From a virus, in the IMG/VR virus record IMGVR_UViG_3300040809_000794, positions 1 through 41,664 of that record: a DNA stretch of 41,664 nucleotides; one strand, 5' to 3'. Position numbers and translations under genes: made by a program. Positions 2 to 41,664 of this stretch are shown here, in pieces. Every line of letters begins with the position of its first letter. Position 1 is the first letter of the stretch. The notes under the pieces are model-generated. The model ran no database searches. It had not been told where the DNA came from and worked only from the letters and a program-made list of their open reading frames with translations.

Positions 2-583
2 GGCGGGTTCTGGATGGACCTCTACCTCTGCGGTGCCACCAGCTATGCGGGCAGCACCTTCAGCGCAGTGCCCAGCAGCCGGATTGGGCTGACCATTGCC
101 GATGGCAGCAGCCCGCCGCTGGTTCCCGCGCAGTACGGCGGCAACGGCAGCACGGCTTATGCCGATGGTAAGTGGTACGTCTTTACTGAAGTTGCTCGTA
201 GTTTTGGGAAGCGTCTGCCGACCTATGACGAGTTCAGCGCTGCAGCGTTCGGGGCCCCCGAGCAAACTAGCCGCGGCTCTGACCCCGGCACGGTGCAGTG
301 GGAGCGGGTGAGCAAGTTCGGCCTTGCGCAGGCCACAGGCGTGCTCCACCAGTGGGGGCAGGAGACCTGCAGTGCAGGGCCGGCAACCGCATGGACGTAT
401 GGGACTGTGACGGCTGGCCGCGGCCAGGTCTATGGTCCTGAAACCCGCGCCGTCCTCCGCGGGGGCGTCTGGAACGACCCGTCCTATTCCGGTTCACGTT
501 GTGCTTACTGGGCCGGCTCTCCCTGGATCTCCGGCGACAACGTTGGGGCGCGTTTTGCGGCCGGGCACCTGGTGCTTGGCTAG
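2..583 (+). CDS. DGR variable (target) protein, C-terminal part; tail-fibre-associated C-type-lectin fold
   Basis: The frame is open from base 2, so the gene is cut by the window edge; the first internal ATG is at 14. The fragment begins GGFWMDLYLCG and ends after RAVLRGGVW...GARFAAGHLVLG, the pattern of DGR target proteins with a formylglycine-enzyme/C-type-lectin-like fold. In that family the variable residues line the ligand-binding face. The last about 45 residues are encoded by the variable repeat at 447-563. The stop codon (581-583) lies just past the repeat, and Avd, template repeat and reverse transcriptase follow, so this is the diversified receptor-binding protein. Its N-terminal part is probably the gene at 41212-41664, with some sequence missing between; that link is inferred. 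Confidence 0.88.
   Translation, partial: GGFWMDLYLCGATSYAGSTFSAVPSSRIGLTIADGSSPPLVPAQYGGNGSTAYADGKWYVFTEVARSFGKRLPTYDEFSAAAFGAPEQTSRGSDPGTVQWERVSKFGLAQATGVLHQWGQETCSAGPATAWTYGTVTAGRGQVYGPETRAVLRGGVWNDPSYSGSRCAYWAGSPWISGDNVGARFAAGHLVLG
447..563 (+). repeat. DGR variable repeat (VR)
   Basis: These 117 bases align without gaps to 1017-1133 at a constant offset of 570. There are 17 mismatches. Sixteen are at adenines of the template copy (9 A to G, 5 A to T, 2 A to C) and one is a T to G at 459. The final 21 bases (543-563) are identical in both copies and GC-rich, as expected for the initiation-of-mutagenic-homology segment. Most altered sites are the first two bases of AAC codons. Confidence 0.96.
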
Positions 584-604
584 GAGGCCCGCCAGGGCCG
601 ACCT
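582..604 (+). promoter_or_regulatory. hairpin downstream of the variable repeat
   Basis: GGCCC (586-590), loop GCCA, GGGCC (595-599), extended by AGG/CCT at 582-584 and 602-604 across a small internal loop. It lies 19 bases past the VR end. In known DGRs a GC-rich hairpin or cruciform with a 4-base loop just downstream of VR raises retrohoming efficiency; this one fits in place and loop size, though its uninterrupted stem is short. Confidence 0.55.
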
Positions 605-606
605 CT

Positions 607-1011
607 ATGACCAGCAAGCGAGCCTCTGCGGATCCCTCCAAGGAGGCTCATGGCCTCTACATGGTCGAGAAGTACGAGCGGGTGATCGACTACCTCTACC
701 CGCTCGCGCAGACGATCCCCCGCAAGCATGGCACCTTCCGAGAGCTGCTGATCCGGCAGCTCTTTCTGGTGGCCGAGCATCTCAACGACGCCATCAAGGC
801 CAACCAGCTCAGCCGTTGTTACGTGCTCGACGGCAGCCTGGGACAGCTCAGGTTGCTGCTGCGTTTCATGGTGCATCACAAGCGCAAGCTGATCACCGAA
901 CATCAGCTGGAGACCGCTCAGGCCCTGGTGGGTGAAGTGGGCTCCATGCTTGGCGGTTGGATTAAACGGCTGCAGGAACAGAAAAAAGGCGGCAAGCTAG
1001 AGCGGGCTTGA
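607..1011 (+). CDS. avd: DGR accessory variability determinant
   Basis: A 134-residue, mostly helical, basic protein. Avd proteins of DGRs are about this size, form a pentameric four-helix-bundle barrel and bind the reverse transcriptase and the template RNA to allow mutagenic cDNA synthesis. The pattern with an N-terminal EKYERVIDYLYPLAQTIPRK segment and a central helix containing RQLFLVAEHLNDAI matches the family. The ATG at 607 is preferred to the upstream TTG-type start because it falls just after the VR hairpin and the extra N-terminal stretch looks like a shadow of the target gene. The stop is 5 bases before the template repeat. Confidence 0.85.
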   Translation: MTSKRASADPSKEAHGLYMVEKYERVIDYLYPLAQTIPRKHGTFRELLIRQLFLVAEHLNDAIKANQLSRCYVLDGSLGQLRLLLRFMVHHKRKLITEHQLETAQALVGEVGSMLGGWIKRLQEQKKGGKLERA

Positions 1012-1016
1012 TGGGG

Positions 1017-1133
1017 GCGCCGTCCTCCTCGGGGGCAACTGGAACAACACGTCCAATTCCGGTTCACGTTGTGCTAACTGGAACAACACTCCCTGGAACT
1101 CCAACAACAACATTGGGGCGCGTTTTGCGGCCG
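1017..1133 (+). repeat. DGR template repeat (TR)
   Basis: Non-coding template matching VR 447-563. Read in the VR frame it carries a run of AAC/AAT codons (12 asparagine codons), the usual design that lets adenine mutagenesis reach many amino acids without stop codons. It holds 26 adenines, of which 16 differ in VR, while only 1 of the other 91 bases differs. It sits between avd and the reverse transcriptase. The region 1134-1288 between TR and RT has no gene I can support and probably forms the 3' spacer of the template RNA. Confidence 0.96.
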
Positions 1134-1288
1134 TGGCCACTGCCAAACACCACCACGCTCTGCTGTTTCTACGGGGCAGCAGGCCGGTGCCAACCAGGTG
1201 CCAGCCATCAAGTCCAGCTTCGGCGAACTCAGGGCCGAGTGGTGGCAATGGCAGGGAGTAGATCATCGAAACCTGCCGCTACCTTCTA

Positions 1289-2263
1289 ATGGGCAAGAAG
1301 TTTCGCAATCTCTACCAGCAGATCTACAGCTGGGACAACTTGCTTGCTGCCTACAGAGAAGCCAGGCGCGGCAAGAGTTATAGCAGTTCCTATCTGCGCT
1401 TCAAGGAGTATTACCTGGCCAACCTGCGCCATCTGCAGTTGCGTCTAATTGAAGGCGGTTGGCGTCCTGATCCGCAGCTGCAGTTCGACATCATCGACCC
1501 CAAGAAGCGCACGATCAGCTGCCAGAGCTTTCGTGATCGGGTGCTACACCACGCCTTGATCCAGGTGGTGGGGCCGATCCTGGACGCCGCGATGATGCCG
1601 CAGGTGTTTGCCTGCCGGGTGGGGCTGGGCACGCATCGGTGTGTCACCAGGATGCAGCAGCTGATGCGGCAGAACCCTGATGGCTGGGTGCTGCACGTGG
1701 ACTTCAGCAAGTTCTTTCCCACCATTCCCCAGGATCTACTGCTGGCCTACCTGGGCAAGAAGCTCACCTGCCGCCGCACGCTGCTGTTGATCGAGCAGGT
1801 GCTGAACGTGCAGGAGTGCGGCGTCCCCATCGGTGCGCTCACCAGCCAGACCTTCGCCAACTACTGGGGCGGCAAGCTGGATCGCTTCATTGCTGCCCGA
1901 GGCATCGGCAGCTTTGTGCGCTACATGGATGACGCTGCTGTCATCGTCCCGAGCAAGGCCCAGGGGCTGCAGCTGAAGGAGCAGATCTGCGCCTTTGTCG
2001 CCAGCGAGATGCACCAGCGCATCGGCAAGTGGAGCCTGGGCCCGGTGGAGCGCGGCCTGACCTTCTGCGGCTTCCGCATTAGGCGGAAGTTCAAGCTGGT
2101 GAAGCGTCAGTCGATGATCCGCCAGCGCAGGCGATTGAAGCTATTGCTCAAGCACGAGGATCACGAGGCCTGGCGTTGTTCGCAGATTGCCTGGATGGGG
2201 CATCTCCGCCATGGTGACGGACAGAATGGCCTTGTATCCCTCGGACTGGCAGCACCATGCTGA
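1289..2263 (+). CDS. DGR reverse transcriptase
   Basis: 324 residues. It shows the RT palm motifs: HVDFSKFF with catalytic Asp138, the domain-4 motif IGALTSQ at 181-187, and RYMDD with Asp214/Asp215. The IGxxxSQ form in place of the QGxxxSP of retroviral and group II intron RTs is diagnostic of DGR enzymes and is linked to low fidelity opposite template adenines. The protein copies the TR transcript into mutagenised cDNA that replaces VR. The ATG at 1289 follows an in-frame stop at 1259-1261 with no alternative ATG, GTG or TTG between. Its 3' end overlaps the next gene by 7 bases. Confidence 0.95.
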   Translation: MGKKFRNLYQQIYSWDNLLAAYREARRGKSYSSSYLRFKEYYLANLRHLQLRLIEGGWRPDPQLQFDIIDPKKRTISCQSFRDRVLHHALIQVVGPILDAAMMPQVFACRVGLGTHRCVTRMQQLMRQNPDGWVLHVDFSKFFPTIPQDLLLAYLGKKLTCRRTLLLIEQVLNVQECGVPIGALTSQTFANYWGGKLDRFIAARGIGSFVRYMDDAAVIVPSKAQGLQLKEQICAFVASEMHQRIGKWSLGPVERGLTFCGFRIRRKFKLVKRQSMIRQRRRLKLLLKHEDHEAWRCSQIAWMGHLRHGDGQNGLVSLGLAAPC

Positions 2264-2511
2264 TCATCAACACTCCTTCCGATCTGGTAGCCACTGAAGC
2301 TGGCGAGGAGCGGACTGCTTTCCTGAACAGCCTGCTGAACGACTACATCACATTTGACGATGCGGTCTACCCCCAGGACTACGACAGCAGCCTGCAACCC
2401 GGTGATTCTGGCTACATCGCTCCGGTGATCCGCCAGGAGTGGAACGCTGGCGCCGCAGCGCAATGGGGCTTCGCTGATCGCGCGGCGGTTGAGGCAGCAC
2501 TGGCTGCCTGA
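2257..2511 (+). CDS. small acidic protein after the DGR reverse transcriptase, function unknown
   Basis: 84 residues, acidic, beginning MLIINTPSDLVATEAGEERT, with no membrane segment or known motif that I recognise. The start overlaps the RT stop (ATGCTGA) and the stop overlaps the next start (TGATG), so it belongs to the same translation-coupled string. Its position suggests a fibre- or DGR-linked accessory, but nothing in the sequence proves this. Confidence 0.75.
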   Translation: MLIINTPSDLVATEAGEERTAFLNSLLNDYITFDDAVYPQDYDSSLQPGDSGYIAPVIRQEWNAGAAAQWGFADRAAVEAALAA

Positions 2512-19353: not shown

Positions 19354-19382
19354 ATGATAGAGCTTTGTTGAATGGTGTCAAG
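19354..19382 (-). promoter_or_regulatory. putative promoter with TTGACACC motif upstream of SSB
   Basis: Minus strand CTTGACACCATTCAAC (19382-19367) with TTGACA as -35 (19381-19376), a 16-base spacer and TATCAT as -10 (19359-19354). The RNA polymerase stop codon is embedded in the motif. This would separate SSB and downstream genes from the RNA polymerase transcript. Confidence 0.6.
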
Positions 19383-21762
19383 TAAAGAGGAAGGGGTTTT
19401 CGCCGATCGAGCCCCTGTCCAGCGTCCCAACAAGTGGCGGCGCAGGAACCTCCCGGCCCAGCACCGTTTCAACAACGCCCTGGTGCCGAGTCAGCCAGTC
19501 CACCGAATAGAAACGGTGCCACTGATCGTTCAGCTCACGTCGCATCGTCCCGACATGCTGCAGCGTGGTCCCAAAGCAGTCGTGCACCGTCGCAATCGGA
19601 TGATCAAACGCCTTCCAGTGCGCAACGAAGCGCTGCAAGAACGCTGCATCCATGCTGTGAATGAAGTCAGGCACAAGCTTCTTGCTTGACCTGGCCTTGT
19701 CTGGCTTCTGGCCTGTCGCATCCCTCACGCAGACGCTGATCGTGGTCTTGGCCAGGTCAAGCTTCACGCTGCGCTTCTCGGTTTCGCTGCACCAGGACTC
19801 CACCGCCAGACCATTCGGGGTGAACCAGTAGGGCCTGCTGCCCGCCTCGATCTGCATCGCAGCAAGGTGCCCCAGCCACTTGGCCAGGTCCTTCGCATGA
19901 GGCACCGCCTCATTGACAACATCGTTAATGGCGCTTGCCAACACGTTTGCCAACTCAACCACCCTCAGGTTGTCCTCAACCAGAAAGTCCTTCACCTCAT
20001 CACGCAGGTACTCCTTGATGCCATCGCTCAGGCTCATGTACGTCCTGCCGTAGATCACAGGCATCAGGGCCTTCTTCCACAAGGACCGCGGGATCTTGTG
20101 CTTCCTCCACCAGGCGAGGCAACGCAGCTCGCTCTCCCGCTTGTCGTCAGCCGTCAGGTTCTCGTTGAGCCACTTGATCCGGGCCTCCACCACCCGGCCC
20201 AGGCCGGTGTACAGGTCGGCTGGCTGGCTGCCCACCACGTTGGTAAACCGGGCCAGCTGGCCGTCCCCAGTCAGGCAAGCAACGTGGCCCCAGCCGCTGC
20301 AGGTCTGATCACGCCAGTGGATCGTGCCGCTGGTGTAGCCAGGGTCCTGCAGGTAGCCATGCCAGTCCCTGCAGAGCTGAACCAGGCGCCACGGTGACTT
20401 GGCCTCGATCCAATACCCCTTGTTGTCGAGCGGCTCCGCTCCGACCTTGGCCACCACGGTGCTCATGGTTTCCAGGTACTTCACCCGCTCATGCGGATCC
20501 GGGGCCGTGCCCAGGGCCTCGCCCAGGCTCCACGCGAACTGGGCTTCATGGCCTTTGATCGGCGACTGCTCCTTGAAGCTGATCAATGAGCGAATGTGGT
20601 CCGGGCCCTGTACGTTGAGCTGGCTGCCGCGGGGATACACCCGGCCGCGGTGATCCATGAAGTGGACCCAGTGCAGCTGCTCCGCCAGCTCCAGGCGCTG
20701 CAGGCTGATGGTGGCGTGCACCATGCGGGTGCGATCAACGTCTCGCCGCTTGGAGGCCTTGTAGGCAAACAGCTGCGGCCAGTAGTCAGGGTTGCCCTTC
20801 TCCTCGCTGGGCGGCTCGGCCCGACGCTGACTGGGTAGGCTGCCGATCTGATGGCCCAGGTTCCAGACGGCCTCAACCAGGGACTGCTGGGCGTGGTCGA
20901 TCTGAAAGGCCTGCTCCTGCAGGTGGTTCACGCTGTCCACCACGCAGGTCTTAGCCCGGCGGATCAACTGCGGCCAGCGCTCCCAATCCACCGTTGAGAG
21001 GCCGGTGCGGATCGTCAGGTAGCCGCCGTCATCAAACCGGGTCCAGGGCAGCGGTGCCGTCACCATCGGCATGTGGATGGGCCGGAACACGGCCGCGGCC
21101 TCCTTCCACCGGGCCAGAAAGGACCAGTAGAGACTGGTGAAGCTGACCATGCGGGCCTTCCGGTTGCGGGCCAGCACCTTGGTCTCGATGCTGATCATCT
21201 TGGTGCTCAGCGCCAGGATCTCCAGGAACAGGCCGCCCAGGGCGGTGCGTTCGGCATGGCTGAGCGGCCTGTACTCCTCGCCGCCGTGCTTGCGCAAGCG
21301 TTGAGCAACCCAACGCATGCCCAGATCACAATTGTTGGCCAGGCGAAGCCCTTCCAGGTGGTAGCTGCGCCGCCAGCGCGGATGTTGCAGGAAGAGGACG
21401 TACTCAGCTCGCTGGCCGAGGCTGGTGGCCAGCTGGTTGAAGGGACGGGTGCTGTCGTTGCTGCCGAGCACGTAGCAGAGCGACTCCAGGGCAACGTGCT
21501 CCACGGCCTTGCGGCCGGGCATCAACGCCCAAATGTGCGCTCCTGGGCCGGGAATGTGGCGAGCCTTTTCCCACTGCTTGATGACTTGATCAACGTAGAA
21601 AGTTGCCAGCCTTTGCGACAACGTGCCGGTCGCACCTTTCTCCCAGTTTCTACTTAAGGCTCGCTCTCGGCCGGTCTCTCGTTGCCAGATTTCAAGCTGC
21701 GTTTGCTCCTCCGAGGAGCCTTCAGGCGGGTGCTTGACAGCGTTTGACTGTTGATTGGTCAT
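19378..21762 (-). CDS. single-subunit DNA-dependent RNA polymerase, T7 family
   Basis: 794 residues (T7: 883). Active-site residues line up with T7: Asp485 in RDQTCSGWGH (T7 Asp537), Lys563 and Tyr571 in KKALMPVIYG (T7 Lys631 and Tyr639), and His727/Asp728 in TVHDCFGT (T7 His811/Asp812). RGRVYPRGSQLNVQGPDH is also conserved. It should transcribe the phage's middle and late genes from phage-specific promoters; the dispersed motif described below is one candidate. It lies downstream of the integrase, as in lysogeny-capable marine podoviruses. Confidence 0.96.
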   Translation of the reverse strand: MTNQQSNAVKHPPEGSSEEQTQLEIWQRETGRERALSRNWEKGATGTLSQRLATFYVDQVIKQWEKARHIPGPGAHIWALMPGRKAVEHVALESLCYVLGSNDSTRPFNQLATSLGQRAEYVLFLQHPRWRRSYHLEGLRLANNCDLGMRWVAQRLRKHGGEEYRPLSHAERTALGGLFLEILALSTKMISIETKVLARNRKARMVSFTSLYWSFLARWKEAAAVFRPIHMPMVTAPLPWTRFDDGGYLTIRTGLSTVDWERWPQLIRRAKTCVVDSVNHLQEQAFQIDHAQQSLVEAVWNLGHQIGSLPSQRRAEPPSEEKGNPDYWPQLFAYKASKRRDVDRTRMVHATISLQRLELAEQLHWVHFMDHRGRVYPRGSQLNVQGPDHIRSLISFKEQSPIKGHEAQFAWSLGEALGTAPDPHERVKYLETMSTVVAKVGAEPLDNKGYWIEAKSPWRLVQLCRDWHGYLQDPGYTSGTIHWRDQTCSGWGHVACLTGDGQLARFTNVVGSQPADLYTGLGRVVEARIKWLNENLTADDKRESELRCLAWWRKHKIPRSLWKKALMPVIYGRTYMSLSDGIKEYLRDEVKDFLVEDNLRVVELANVLASAINDVVNEAVPHAKDLAKWLGHLAAMQIEAGSRPYWFTPNGLAVESWCSETEKRSVKLDLAKTTISVCVRDATGQKPDKARSSKKLVPDFIHSMDAAFLQRFVAHWKAFDHPIATVHDCFGTTLQHVGTMRRELNDQWHRFYSVDWLTRHQGVVETVLGREVPAPPLVGTLDRGSIGENPFLFT

Positions 21763-21803
21763 TCTCAGGGATCTCAGTGGGGATCCCCCTGGTGGCCTGG
21801 GTC

Positions 21804-21819
21804 CTTGACACCACGCAAT
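21804..21819 (+). promoter_or_regulatory. degenerate TTGACACC-type motif in the att region
   Basis: CTTGACACCACGCAAT on the plus strand, opposite to local transcription; closest to the 26699-26714 copy (CTTGACACCACTCAAT, one difference). Confidence 0.4.
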
Positions 21820-21825
21820 CTTGCT

Positions 21826-21868
21826 ACGGATTATGAGTCCGCTGCATTCACCAGATTGCTAGACCCCC
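21826..21868 (-). other. half-tRNA-like sequence with CAT anticodon loop, candidate attP core
   Basis: On the minus strand the 43 bases can be laid out as the 5' half of a tRNA: GGGGGTC as acceptor strand, TA, a D-arm with GG and AA in its loop, then anticodon stem GCGGA, loop CTCATAA and stem TCCGT. The loop has the canonical C32, U33, A37 and A38. No T-arm follows, so it is not a gene. Tyrosine integrases often use anticodon stem-loops of tRNA genes as att cores, and the integrase gene ends 73 bases away. Confidence 0.55.
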
Positions 21869-21930: not shown

Positions 21931-21946
21931 CTAGACACCGTTCAAC
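21931..21946 (+). promoter_or_regulatory. dispersed TTGACACC-type motif at the integrase 3' end
   Basis: CTAGACACCGTTCAAC, two differences from the exact form. The integrase stop codon lies inside it. It points against the integrase gene, unlike the copies upstream of operons. Confidence 0.5.
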
Positions 21947-22955
21947 ATTCCACCAGGGCCTCCAGGTTGATACCGGCTGCATGGATGTAGCGCTGGGTGA
22001 CCGCCAGGCTCTTGTGGCCAGCCCATTGCTGGATGGCCGGAGCCTGCCAGCCCTTGCGGGCCAGCTCCGTGATGCAAGTGTGGCGCAGCGTGTGGATGAC
22101 CCATTCGCGGCGCGTTGTATCACCAAGTTGTAGAGCATCGCAAGCTGCATGCTTGGCGTCACTGTAGTGCAGAAGGTAGGTGCCATAGCAAGTTGGAAAC
22201 ACATCCTTAGCGCCGCGTTGTTTCATGGCCTTGAGGATGCGGACCATCTCCTCATTCAATGGCAACGTCCGGGGCATGTTGCCCTTGGTCTTTACGAACT
22301 GGATTCGCCGAGAACCCAGGTCCACACGGTCCCAGGTCAGGTCTAGGGCCTCTCCAACCCGGCAGCCCATCTGCCGCAGGAACAGCGTCAGAGCCAGCGA
22401 CAATCGCTGCTCTCGTTGCTCCAGTCGATCGAGCATCGCCGCAAACCAGTCCTCACGCAGCACCAGGTCGCGGGGCTCCGGGAGCTGCAGCGTCCGCTTC
22501 TCAGGCATCAGCGGCATGGCCTCGATCCAGCCCAGCCGGCAAGCCCGCTTGAGCATCACGCTGGCCGCGTTGAGATACTTCCTGATCGTGGTGTTGCTCA
22601 GGCCGCGGCCTCTCAGCTCCACCACCAGGTCATCAAGGGCTCGCATCGTTAGCTGCGATGGATGGGCGTCTGGCCCCAGCAGCCGGGCCAATCGGCAGGC
22701 GTTCTCCCACTGACTGGGGTCCTTGCCGGCCCAATCCAAACCTTCACAAATGTCTACAAGGTGGCCCAGCGTCTGGCCTCCCTCGGCGCTGCGGCGCCAC
22801 TCCAACCGCTGTCGCTCCTCCACCACGCCAGCCTTGGCCGCGGCCTCCCAGGCCTCAGCCTCCTCCCTGGTGGCGAAGTACCGGCTCTTGCGGCCGTCTG
22901 GCGTGGTGACACCAGCAAACCAGCGATTGCGGTCACTGCGGAATCGAACTGCCAT
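21942..22955 (-). CDS. int: tyrosine recombinase / integrase
   Basis: 337 residues. Catalytic residues are all visible: Arg199 (GCRVGEALDL), Lys224, His288 and Arg291 (HTLRHTCITEL), His314 (WAGHKSL) and Tyr323 (TQRYIH). The N-terminal part (WFAGVTTPDGRKSRYFATREEAEAW) is an arm-binding type domain, followed by a SAM-like core-binding region. It would insert the phage genome at a host att site, probably a tRNA gene. The gene overlaps the MarR-like gene upstream by 23 bases, so the two are co-expressed. Confidence 0.95.
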   Translation of the reverse strand: MAVRFRSDRNRWFAGVTTPDGRKSRYFATREEAEAWEAAAKAGVVEERQRLEWRRSAEGGQTLGHLVDICEGLDWAGKDPSQWENACRLARLLGPDAHPSQLTMRALDDLVVELRGRGLSNTTIRKYLNAASVMLKRACRLGWIEAMPLMPEKRTLQLPEPRDLVLREDWFAAMLDRLEQREQRLSLALTLFLRQMGCRVGEALDLTWDRVDLGSRRIQFVKTKGNMPRTLPLNEEMVRILKAMKQRGAKDVFPTCYGTYLLHYSDAKHAACDALQLGDTTRREWVIHTLRHTCITELARKGWQAPAIQQWAGHKSLAVTQRYIHAAGINLEALVEC

Positions 22956-40111: not shown

Positions 40112-41212
40112 ATGTCCGCACCGTCTTTCACTTACAGCGGCAATGTTTATACCGGTGCATCTGCAGGCTCTGTTGATTTCCCCCTGACATCAACAGAGGG
40201 GAATGCGATCGGCTACCTGGAGCGATCGCACATTCATGTGTACAAGAGCGCGGACCAGGGCGCCACATGGACAGAGCGGGCCCGTCCTGGCGACTGGGAC
40301 TTCGTCACCAACGGGACTGTCGCCAGGTTGACGACCGGTATCGCGACCGGCGAATGGGTGAAGGTGCAGCGCATTACGCCAAGCGACACTTCATACATCA
40401 CGTTTCAGGCTTCATCGCTGCTTACCGCTGAGCAGCTGAATGACGACACTCTTTTCAATACATACATCAACCAAGAGCGGTACGATCAAGGTGAGGAGTC
40501 AGCAGCGTTGGCGACGGCTGCCAGCAATGCCGCAGTTGCTGCCACTACTGCCGCCACCGCCGCAACTACGGCCGCCAACAACGCCAACTCCACCGCCGCG
40601 GCGGCCACAACGGCCGCGAATAACGCAACTGCAGCTGCAACGGCTGCTACAGCAGCGTCAACTGCGGCGACCACTGCTGCTTCGCAAGCGTCTACAGACG
40701 CCGCCACGGCAATTAGCACCGCCAACGCAGCCAGTACAGATGCTGCAACAGCTCTGAGCACAGCCAACGCCGCCAGCACCACGGCCAATCAGGCCGCGGC
40801 CGCAGTTTCCAATGCGGTGCTGTTCGACCTCATTGCCAACGTCGGGGCCATTCCCGCCAGCCCCAGCGACAACACCTATGTCGAAGTCGGTGACAGCACT
40901 GGTATCGAATCGTTTACGCCATTGGCAGGGCTGCCGGCAACGTTCACCGGCGATGCAGGGCTGACGGTCAGGCTGCGCTACACAACAGCAGGGTCAACCT
41001 GGAATTACCTCAGCTACTTCGCCAATGATCCAGAGACCCGTTATGAGCCGATCGGCTCTGGCGGCTCCGGTGTCACAGCAGAAAACGATCAAGCGATCGT
41101 TTCTGATTACACGCTTGCCACTGGCAAGAACGCTTCATCAGTTGGGCCTGTGTCCATTGATGCGGGCGTGACTGTCACCATTTCCGCCAACTCAACCTGG
41201 GTGATCTTCTGA
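40112..41212 (+). CDS. tail fibre protein with T7 gp17-type N-terminus
   Basis: 366 residues. The N-terminal about 125 residues (FTYSGNVYTGASAGSVDFPL...SYITFQASSLLTAEQLND) match the T7 tail-fibre domain that attaches to the tail. A stalk of Ala/Thr/Asn repeats (about residues 130-230, encoded at about 40500-40810) should form a trimeric coiled coil. The C-terminus is a small beta-rich tip. Adapter for the DGR target protein encoded next. An AGGAGA ribosome site is upstream. Stop and next start overlap as TGATGG. Confidence 0.85.
   Translation: MSAPSFTYSGNVYTGASAGSVDFPLTSTEGNAIGYLERSHIHVYKSADQGATWTERARPGDWDFVTNGTVARLTTGIATGEWVKVQRITPSDTSYITFQASSLLTAEQLNDDTLFNTYINQERYDQGEESAALATAASNAAVAATTAATAATTAANNANSTAAAATTAANNATAAATAATAASTAATTAASQASTDAATAISTANAASTDAATALSTANAASTTANQAAAAVSNAVLFDLIANVGAIPASPSDNTYVEVGDSTGIESFTPLAGLPATFTGDAGLTVRLRYTTAGSTWNYLSYFANDPETRYEPIGSGGSGVTAENDQAIVSDYTLATGKNASSVGPVSIDAGVTVTISANSTWVIF
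40168..40198 (+). repeat. 10-base perfect inverted repeat inside the fibre gene
   Basis: CTCTGTTGAT (40168-40177), 11 bases, ATCAACAGAG (40189-40198). It can form a strong hairpin 56 bases into the mRNA of the fibre gene. Confidence 0.55.
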
Positions 41213-41664
41213 TGGCTTACGGCAAACTCAAGGCCGACTCACTTGAGTCGAGCACGCAAACACTGAACGTTGATGATCTCGCCACCACGGCGGCAACGGT
41301 TGCACCGACTCGCACAGTTGCAGCTGGCACCGGCCTGACCGGCGGCGGCGACCTGAGCGCCAACCGCACGATCAGCGCGGATTTGGCCAGCCAGGCAGAA
41401 GCCGAGGCGGGCACCAGCTCCACCAAGCTGATGACGCCGCTGCGCACCGCCGAGGCGATTGCGGCCCTGGCCACCGGCGGTGCCGTGCTCTACAACCGCC
41501 GGCCGGCCCTGCATCGCGGCTCGCTGTTCTACAAGACAGCTGCGGCCACCATCAGCATCGTGGCCGGCGCTGTGTTGAACGGGCACCTGTATTCGGTGGC
41601 CACGGCGGTGACGATGCCAAGCCACAGCAGCAACACCGACTACGCCATTTGGCAGAACCCCACC
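41212..41664 (+). CDS. tail-fibre protein, N-terminal part, probably the DGR target protein
   Basis: Open to the window end: 151 residues. It begins MAYGKLKADSLESSTQTLNV, then a fibre motif (VAAGTGLTGGGDLSANRTIS; SSTKLMTPLRTAEAI) and a beta-rich part ending NTDYAIWQNPT. This kind of N-terminus precedes FGE/C-type-lectin domains in phage DGR targets. Direct joining of window end to start would put this frame out of register with the C-terminal part at base 2, so sequence is missing between. The link is inferred. Confidence 0.75.
   Translation, partial: MAYGKLKADSLESSTQTLNVDDLATTAATVAPTRTVAAGTGLTGGGDLSANRTISADLASQAEAEAGTSSTKLMTPLRTAEAIAALATGGAVLYNRRPALHRGSLFYKTAAATISIVAGAVLNGHLYSVATAVTMPSHSSNTDYAIWQNPT

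Follow-up and report, generated by a model that had tools for sequence, protein, structure and literature searches.

The window analyzed here is an entire IMG/VR virus record of 41,664 bases, classed as linear, which begins inside a gene for an Mtd-like receptor-binding protein and continues with the components of a diversity-generating retroelement (DGR). The relevant features are as follows.

2..583, plus strand: C-terminal 193 aa of an Mtd-like receptor-binding protein, 5' end cut (phrog_11262 tail protein, 2.7e-68; 42% identity to BPP-1 Mtd; PDB Mtd entry 1yu3, 1.4e-34)
447..563, plus strand: variable repeat (VR) of mtd (repeat finding and mismatch count)
586..599, plus strand: post-VR hairpin/cruciform GGCCC-GCCA-GGGCC, directly 3' of the mtd stop, in the same place as the BPP-1 hairpin
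607..1011, plus strand: avd, accessory variability determinant (Pfam PF22296, bAvd, 8e-21; PHROG "Avd protein of DGR," 4e-20; PDB 4dwl, 5.7e-29)
1017..1133, plus strand: template repeat (TR), 26 A in 117 nt (repeat finding; 80% DNA identity to the BPP-1 TR over 94 nt)
1157..1283, plus strand: DGR RNA element in the interval between TR and the reverse transcriptase gene (Rfam RF03022, Phage_DGR, 70.8 bits, full-length model)
1289..2263, plus strand: DGR reverse transcriptase (RT), 324 aa, with YMDD and IGALTSQ (phrog_1423, 6.9e-88; 38.5% identity to BPP-1 Brt; PDB 8ub7_A, 6e-68)
2257..2511, plus strand: small open reading frame (ORF) of unassigned function that closes the conserved module (phrog_30757, 4.8e-38)
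19378..21762, minus strand: T7-type single-subunit RNA polymerase (phrog_414, 1.6e-111)
21828..21868, minus strand: putative attP core of 41 nt, corresponding to the 5' half of tRNA(CAT) genes of picocyanobacteria (39-mer matches; Rfam hit to tRNA at 21778-21868)
21942..22955, minus strand: tyrosine integrase, adjoining attP (phrog_1, 6.7e-45)
41212..41664, plus strand: N-terminal part (151 aa) of this Mtd gene, open at the 3' end (phrog_11262 positions 39-134; 80% identical to the homologue in locus L012 over its residues 18-167)

After the VR, the hairpin, avd, TR, RNA element, and RT gene follow each other in the BPP-1 order. The PDB entry matched by Avd, 4dwl, is the BPP-1 protein Bbp7/Avd; the RNA element scores above the Rfam gathering threshold of 50 bits; and the Mtd crystal structures match the C-terminal part of the gene product over 192 aa at E values of about 1e-34. 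Residues R74 and I181 of the RT are invariant in its alignment with the BPP-1 enzyme, and their equivalents in bRT presumably promote adenine mutagenesis. Similarity between otherwise unlike phages stops just past the small ORF. The original prediction had described this region as a complete DGR with the BPP-1 signature, including an avd gene at 607-1011 and an RT with the IGALTSQ and YMDD motifs. Every component that was tested supports that assignment: Avd is borne out by its Pfam, PHROG, and PDB matches, and the RT belongs to the DGR clade by its matches to phrog_1423 and to bRT in PDB. The word "complete" holds for the mutagenesis machinery, all of which is present, but not for the target gene mtd, which is cut by the ends of the record.

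The rest of mtd is found at the opposite end of the window. With the complete Mtd homologue encoded in L012 as a reference, ∼72 codons (∼0.2 kb) between the two gene parts are left uncovered. Given this placement of the two parts, the record most likely represents a nearly complete, permuted genome that was broken inside mtd. In another related locus (L003:422-3295), a tail-fibre-like protein of 957 aa, in which VDSVFGRTGAVVA units recur, has the Mtd C-terminal domain at its end; the N-terminal anchor varies among phages, with the variable tip being retained.

Repeat finding recovered exactly the predicted VR/TR pair at its fixed offset of 570. The 117 ungapped nucleotides contain 17 mismatches, the same number as originally counted, with 16 of them at the 26 TR adenines and one among the remaining 91 bases (p = 4e-12 by Fisher test). 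The adenine-site changes in VR are nine A>G, five A>T, and two A>C; the sole non-adenine change is T>G. VR lies inside the open frame that runs from the first bases of the record to the stop at 583 and ends at 563, shortly before the mtd stop codon (581-583), as the 3' end of a target with the C-type-lectin fold; TR is intergenic. In DGRs of the BPP-1 type, a difference between IMH and IMH* sets the direction from TR to VR; here, the two sequences part ways after 563 and 1133, respectively, and no third TR/VR copy or further VRs were found on either strand across the whole window. Since only 1 of the 91 non-adenine sites differs between TR and VR, the conversion is recent relative to drift.

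BPP-1 requires the post-VR hairpin/cruciform for retrohoming, and the published phage hairpins have stems of 7 to 10 bp and GRNA loops (PMC3240598). The window hairpin, in contrast, has a 5-bp stem (against 8 bp in BPP-1) and the loop GCCA. A hairpin after mtd was found in all 36 cyanophage loci that were read, with a stem that is nearly always 5 bp, either GGCCC/GGGCC or, through a compensated change, GGCGC/GCGCC, and a loop of the GNNA type (GACA, GCCA, GGCA, GTCA, or GTTA). This form can be regarded as a modest variation on a known element.

The window DGR belongs to a well-known system, and machinery of this kind is already known. It shares with the mtd-avd-TR-brt element of BPP-1 the gene order, the Mtd target, Avd, the RT, a similar TR, the DGR RNA, and a hairpin after VR, but the hairpin has a shorter stem and a GNNA-type loop, and the element resides in a T7-like backbone with its own RNA polymerase and in a phage of a different host. 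It also represents the same system as the phage-class DGRs in the global survey of IMG metagenomes and genomes by Roux et al. (2021), in which adenine bias and C-type-lectin targets are described as near universal (PMC8144416); no Synechococcus phage is named in the main text of that survey, which may already list related records. DGRs of cyanobacterial chromosomes share the cyanobacterial setting but are found in cellular genomes and linked to regulatory genes (PMC7517822), whereas the one in the window is phage borne and targets the tail tip. No earlier report of a DGR in this phage group was found in the literature searched.

Variation among relatives and movement of the module

Altogether, 43 related loci were fetched, from which 34 nonredundant cyanophage TR/VR pairs were counted. 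In these pairs, 527 of the 919 TR adenines (57%) were changed, as were 2 of 1182 C, 3 of 1046 G (0.2 to 0.3% for C and G), and 18 of 757 T. Three pairs of near-identical loci have identical TR and RT sequences: VR differs at 8 sites between L020 and L021, at 4 sites between L027 and L029, and at 7 sites between L028 and L030, where VR is partly covered. All 19 of these differences fall at TR adenines. The proposed check, that VR should vary at adenine-linked sites while TR stays constant, was run on contigs and passed for the close relatives. The claim that the element has been active in this lineage thereby stands for the close relatives, with their VR-only variation; the single TR/VR pair of the window shows past activity alone. 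These comparisons support an element that is active in the clade of the window (the RTs of the relatives are 81 to 85% identical), the window record itself being one snapshot.

In the relative L033 (3731-3847), TR lacks 19 of the 31 adenines present in the nearest TR (L038) and shows merely 6 other differences, and the RT and Avd frames are intact. This template seems to have been mutagenized itself or converted from a VR.

Among 14 longer relatives, the module is found both in contigs with a T7-like RNA polymerase, capsid, or terminase and in contigs without any of these, some of which are fragments. The L020 contig has a GC content of 59%, a tape-measure gene, and a capsid of a different family. 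It comes from the same metagenome as the unlike L021 contig (IMGVR_UViG_3300049043_000184, 45% GC), and the sole stretch that the two have in common is a 3,006-bp mtd-DGR segment (L020:2227-5232 and L021:1-3005) with 99.6% identity, which stops 17 nt past the stop codon of the small ORF. This could represent either a recent transfer or a chimeric contig, the latter because the L021 contig ends within the common stretch. Another contig, IMGVR_UViG_3300020179_000036 (58,560 bases), contains the same DGR locus twice (L005 and L006), 40,118 bases apart, which suggests an assembly that runs ∼1.5 times round a 40-kb genome.

The Synechococcus phages S-CBS1 and S-CBS3 share with the window the C-terminal half of Mtd (56 to 69% identical), the hairpin, and the small ORF. 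Unlike the window, they have no avd or TR and have lost most of the RT, a deletion of ∼1.5 kb relative to L031, with ∼40 codons of the RT C terminus left. The scars, each with mtd, the hairpin, and this RT remnant, are located as follows.

L045:4560-4740: deletion scar in S-CBS3
L046:3570-3760: deletion scar in S-CBS1

These sequences show that unlike cyanophages gain, swap, and lose the mtd-DGR module.

Phage backbone and host

The backbone genes of the window encode the single-subunit RNA polymerase, a Gp10-like capsid, portal, nozzle, primase-helicase, exonuclease, terminase, internal virion protein, and the integrase. An RNA polymerase of the T7 type together with capsid, portal, tail, and terminase genes of that type supports the predicted T7-like character of the phage, as a podovirus of the Autographiviridae type. 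The nearest named relative of this backbone is MedDCM-OCT-S39-C11, an uncultured Krakvirus. Its terminase (72%), portal (68%), capsid (76%), RNA polymerase (42%), and integrase (40%) resemble those of the window, but at the position of the mtd-DGR module it has a 5.7-kb "putative lectin" gene, and its annotated genes do not include an RT.

The 41-nt block downstream of the integrase gene is kept in five relatives, in which its flanks are variable. In the GTDB collection of 84,980 species, 30 contigs contain an exact copy of a 39-mer from this putative attP core, all 30 of them picocyanobacterial, with Cyanobium, Synechococcus, and Vulcanococcus represented besides other cyanobacterial records. 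ARAGORN calls a tRNA(CAT) gene at the 39-mer in 16 of these contigs, and the other 14 sequences are nearly identical. In the window itself, ARAGORN reported no tRNA, the truncated one being seen only by a permissive Rfam scan. These matches lend support to the predicted cyanophage nature of the record and constitute good indirect evidence that the host is picocyanobacterial, probably a small freshwater or estuarine cyanobacterium, and that the phage would be able to integrate. The 61% GC of the window would fit Cyanobium-type hosts. A search with exact RT peptides of 84,980 bacterial and archaeal genomes returned no RT relatives and, hence, no prophage copy. In seven related loci (L054-L059 and L061), the attP spot is occupied by an apparent 5' half of tRNA-Leu(UAA), identified by eye, from which a change of tRNA target within this group of integrases seems to have taken place.

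Proposed mechanism and alternative explanations

The locus has all its parts in the BPP-1 order and shows the adenine bias, and in close relatives VR alone continues to vary. It is almost certainly a working BPP-1-type DGR, carried by a T7-like, temperate-capable phage of picocyanobacteria of the Cyanobium/Synechococcus type. The RNA and cDNA steps, the retrohoming, and the consequences for adsorption can be expected, by analogy with BPP-1, to be as follows. The avd-TR-RT region would be transcribed, and Avd and RT would copy TR into cDNA, using the RNA just 3' of TR, with RT misreading about half of the template adenines. The cDNA would then replace VR at the 3' end of mtd, aided by the hairpin at 586-599, and TR would be retained. 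The altered residues fall in the C-type-lectin tip of Mtd, which would give a phage population with many receptor-binding variants. Such variation may let the phage track changes of the cyanobacterial surface.

Three other explanations deserve consideration. The mismatches between TR and VR could be viewed as an effect of chance or composition in two diverged duplicates, for which nothing speaks except the moderately A-rich TR. This reading has a negligible probability and is already refuted by the Fisher test on the window pair, the recurrence of the adenine bias in 33 further cyanophage pairs, and silent-site drift between relatives that is mostly C/T and A/G. It is far less extreme, though still very improbable, that the DGR is decayed or dormant, with VR carrying the products of old mutagenesis that are now fixed. 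One TR/VR snapshot cannot date the changes, and the family has examples of DGR loss, S-CBS1 and S-CBS3 having mtd next to a mere RT remnant. However, all components of the window element are intact, the near absence of non-adenine differences places the conversion recently relative to drift, and near-identical relatives differ at VR adenine sites alone.

About equally unlikely, by the slightest degree less so, is a noncyanobacterial host whose phage merely acquired the mtd-DGR module from a cyanophage. Exchange of the module among phages of unlike kinds is clear, and the host of the Krakvirus with the nearest structural genes is not known. Against this stands the attP core, which lies at least 17 kb from the DGR and whose 39-mer occurs in picocyanobacterial contigs only, and a GC content that would fit Cyanobium-type hosts. 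The working DGR in a picocyanobacterial phage is preferred. With it, T7-like phages of an abundant, culturable host group are seen to carry an active tropism-changing DGR, and S-CBS1 and S-CBS3, which retain the target and have the machine deleted, form together with the window a natural comparison with and without the DGR.

T-to-G changes in BPP-1-type DGRs

The single non-adenine change in the window, T>G at position 459, belongs to a wider pattern. In a set of 112 TR/VR pairs from the BPP-1-type clade, cyanophage and BPP-1-like (L002-L044, L086-L127, and L268-L337), T was changed at 65 of 2548 sites, with 56 of these changes being T>G; C and G together had 21 changes in 7,424 sites. T>G was seen at only 2 of 1205 sites in the gut-phage DGR clade (p = 9e-8 against 56 of 2548 in the BPP-1-type clade) and at 4 of 535 sites in Faecalibacterium-type DGRs. 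In a survey of 948 DGRs, by contrast, C was reported as the usual product of T changes, and a figure of 0 to 0.5% non-adenine changes was quoted for BPP-1 (PMC6642488). According to a recent in vivo study of BPP-1, dC is the chief misinsertion opposite A, and the 3' neighbour has a strong influence (PMC12875486).

Two sources of the T>G changes were rejected. TR polymorphism is not the main cause: at 54 of the 56 sites, T is also present in the most closely related other TR, so that VR is the changed copy. Neutral drift does not account for them either, as silent differences in the RT genes of relatives comprise 116 C/T versus 10 G/T, with C/T and A/G dominating, whereas silent T changes from TR to VR produced G 12 times, C 4 times, and A 2 times. 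T>G is also scarce before G, occurring at 2 of 874 such sites and at 54 of 1669 sites otherwise, although T before G is often located within conserved codons, which bears on this scarcity. Selection may contribute, because TR positions 9, 41, and 96 (0-based) carry 35 of the 56 events, all of them amino-acid changing.

The chances seem evenly divided as to whether the RTs of the BPP-1 type have a second, weaker channel, with dC inserted opposite ∼2% of template U, mainly where the 3' neighbour is not G, as a property of this RT clade that is near absent in the gut-phage DGR clade. If it is indeed an RT property, this signature would refine the adenine-only rule of DGR mutagenesis. A clade-restricted, rarer T-to-G change in BPP-1-type DGRs is possibly new.

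At the AT dinucleotides in TR positions 8-9 and 95-96 (0-based), T>G is accompanied by A>C in 9 of 11 cases. Slippage was rejected as the source of these AT-to-CG double changes, as no template dinucleotide fits. They create mostly Arg codons and may reflect selected or retained Arg codons or a coupled error.
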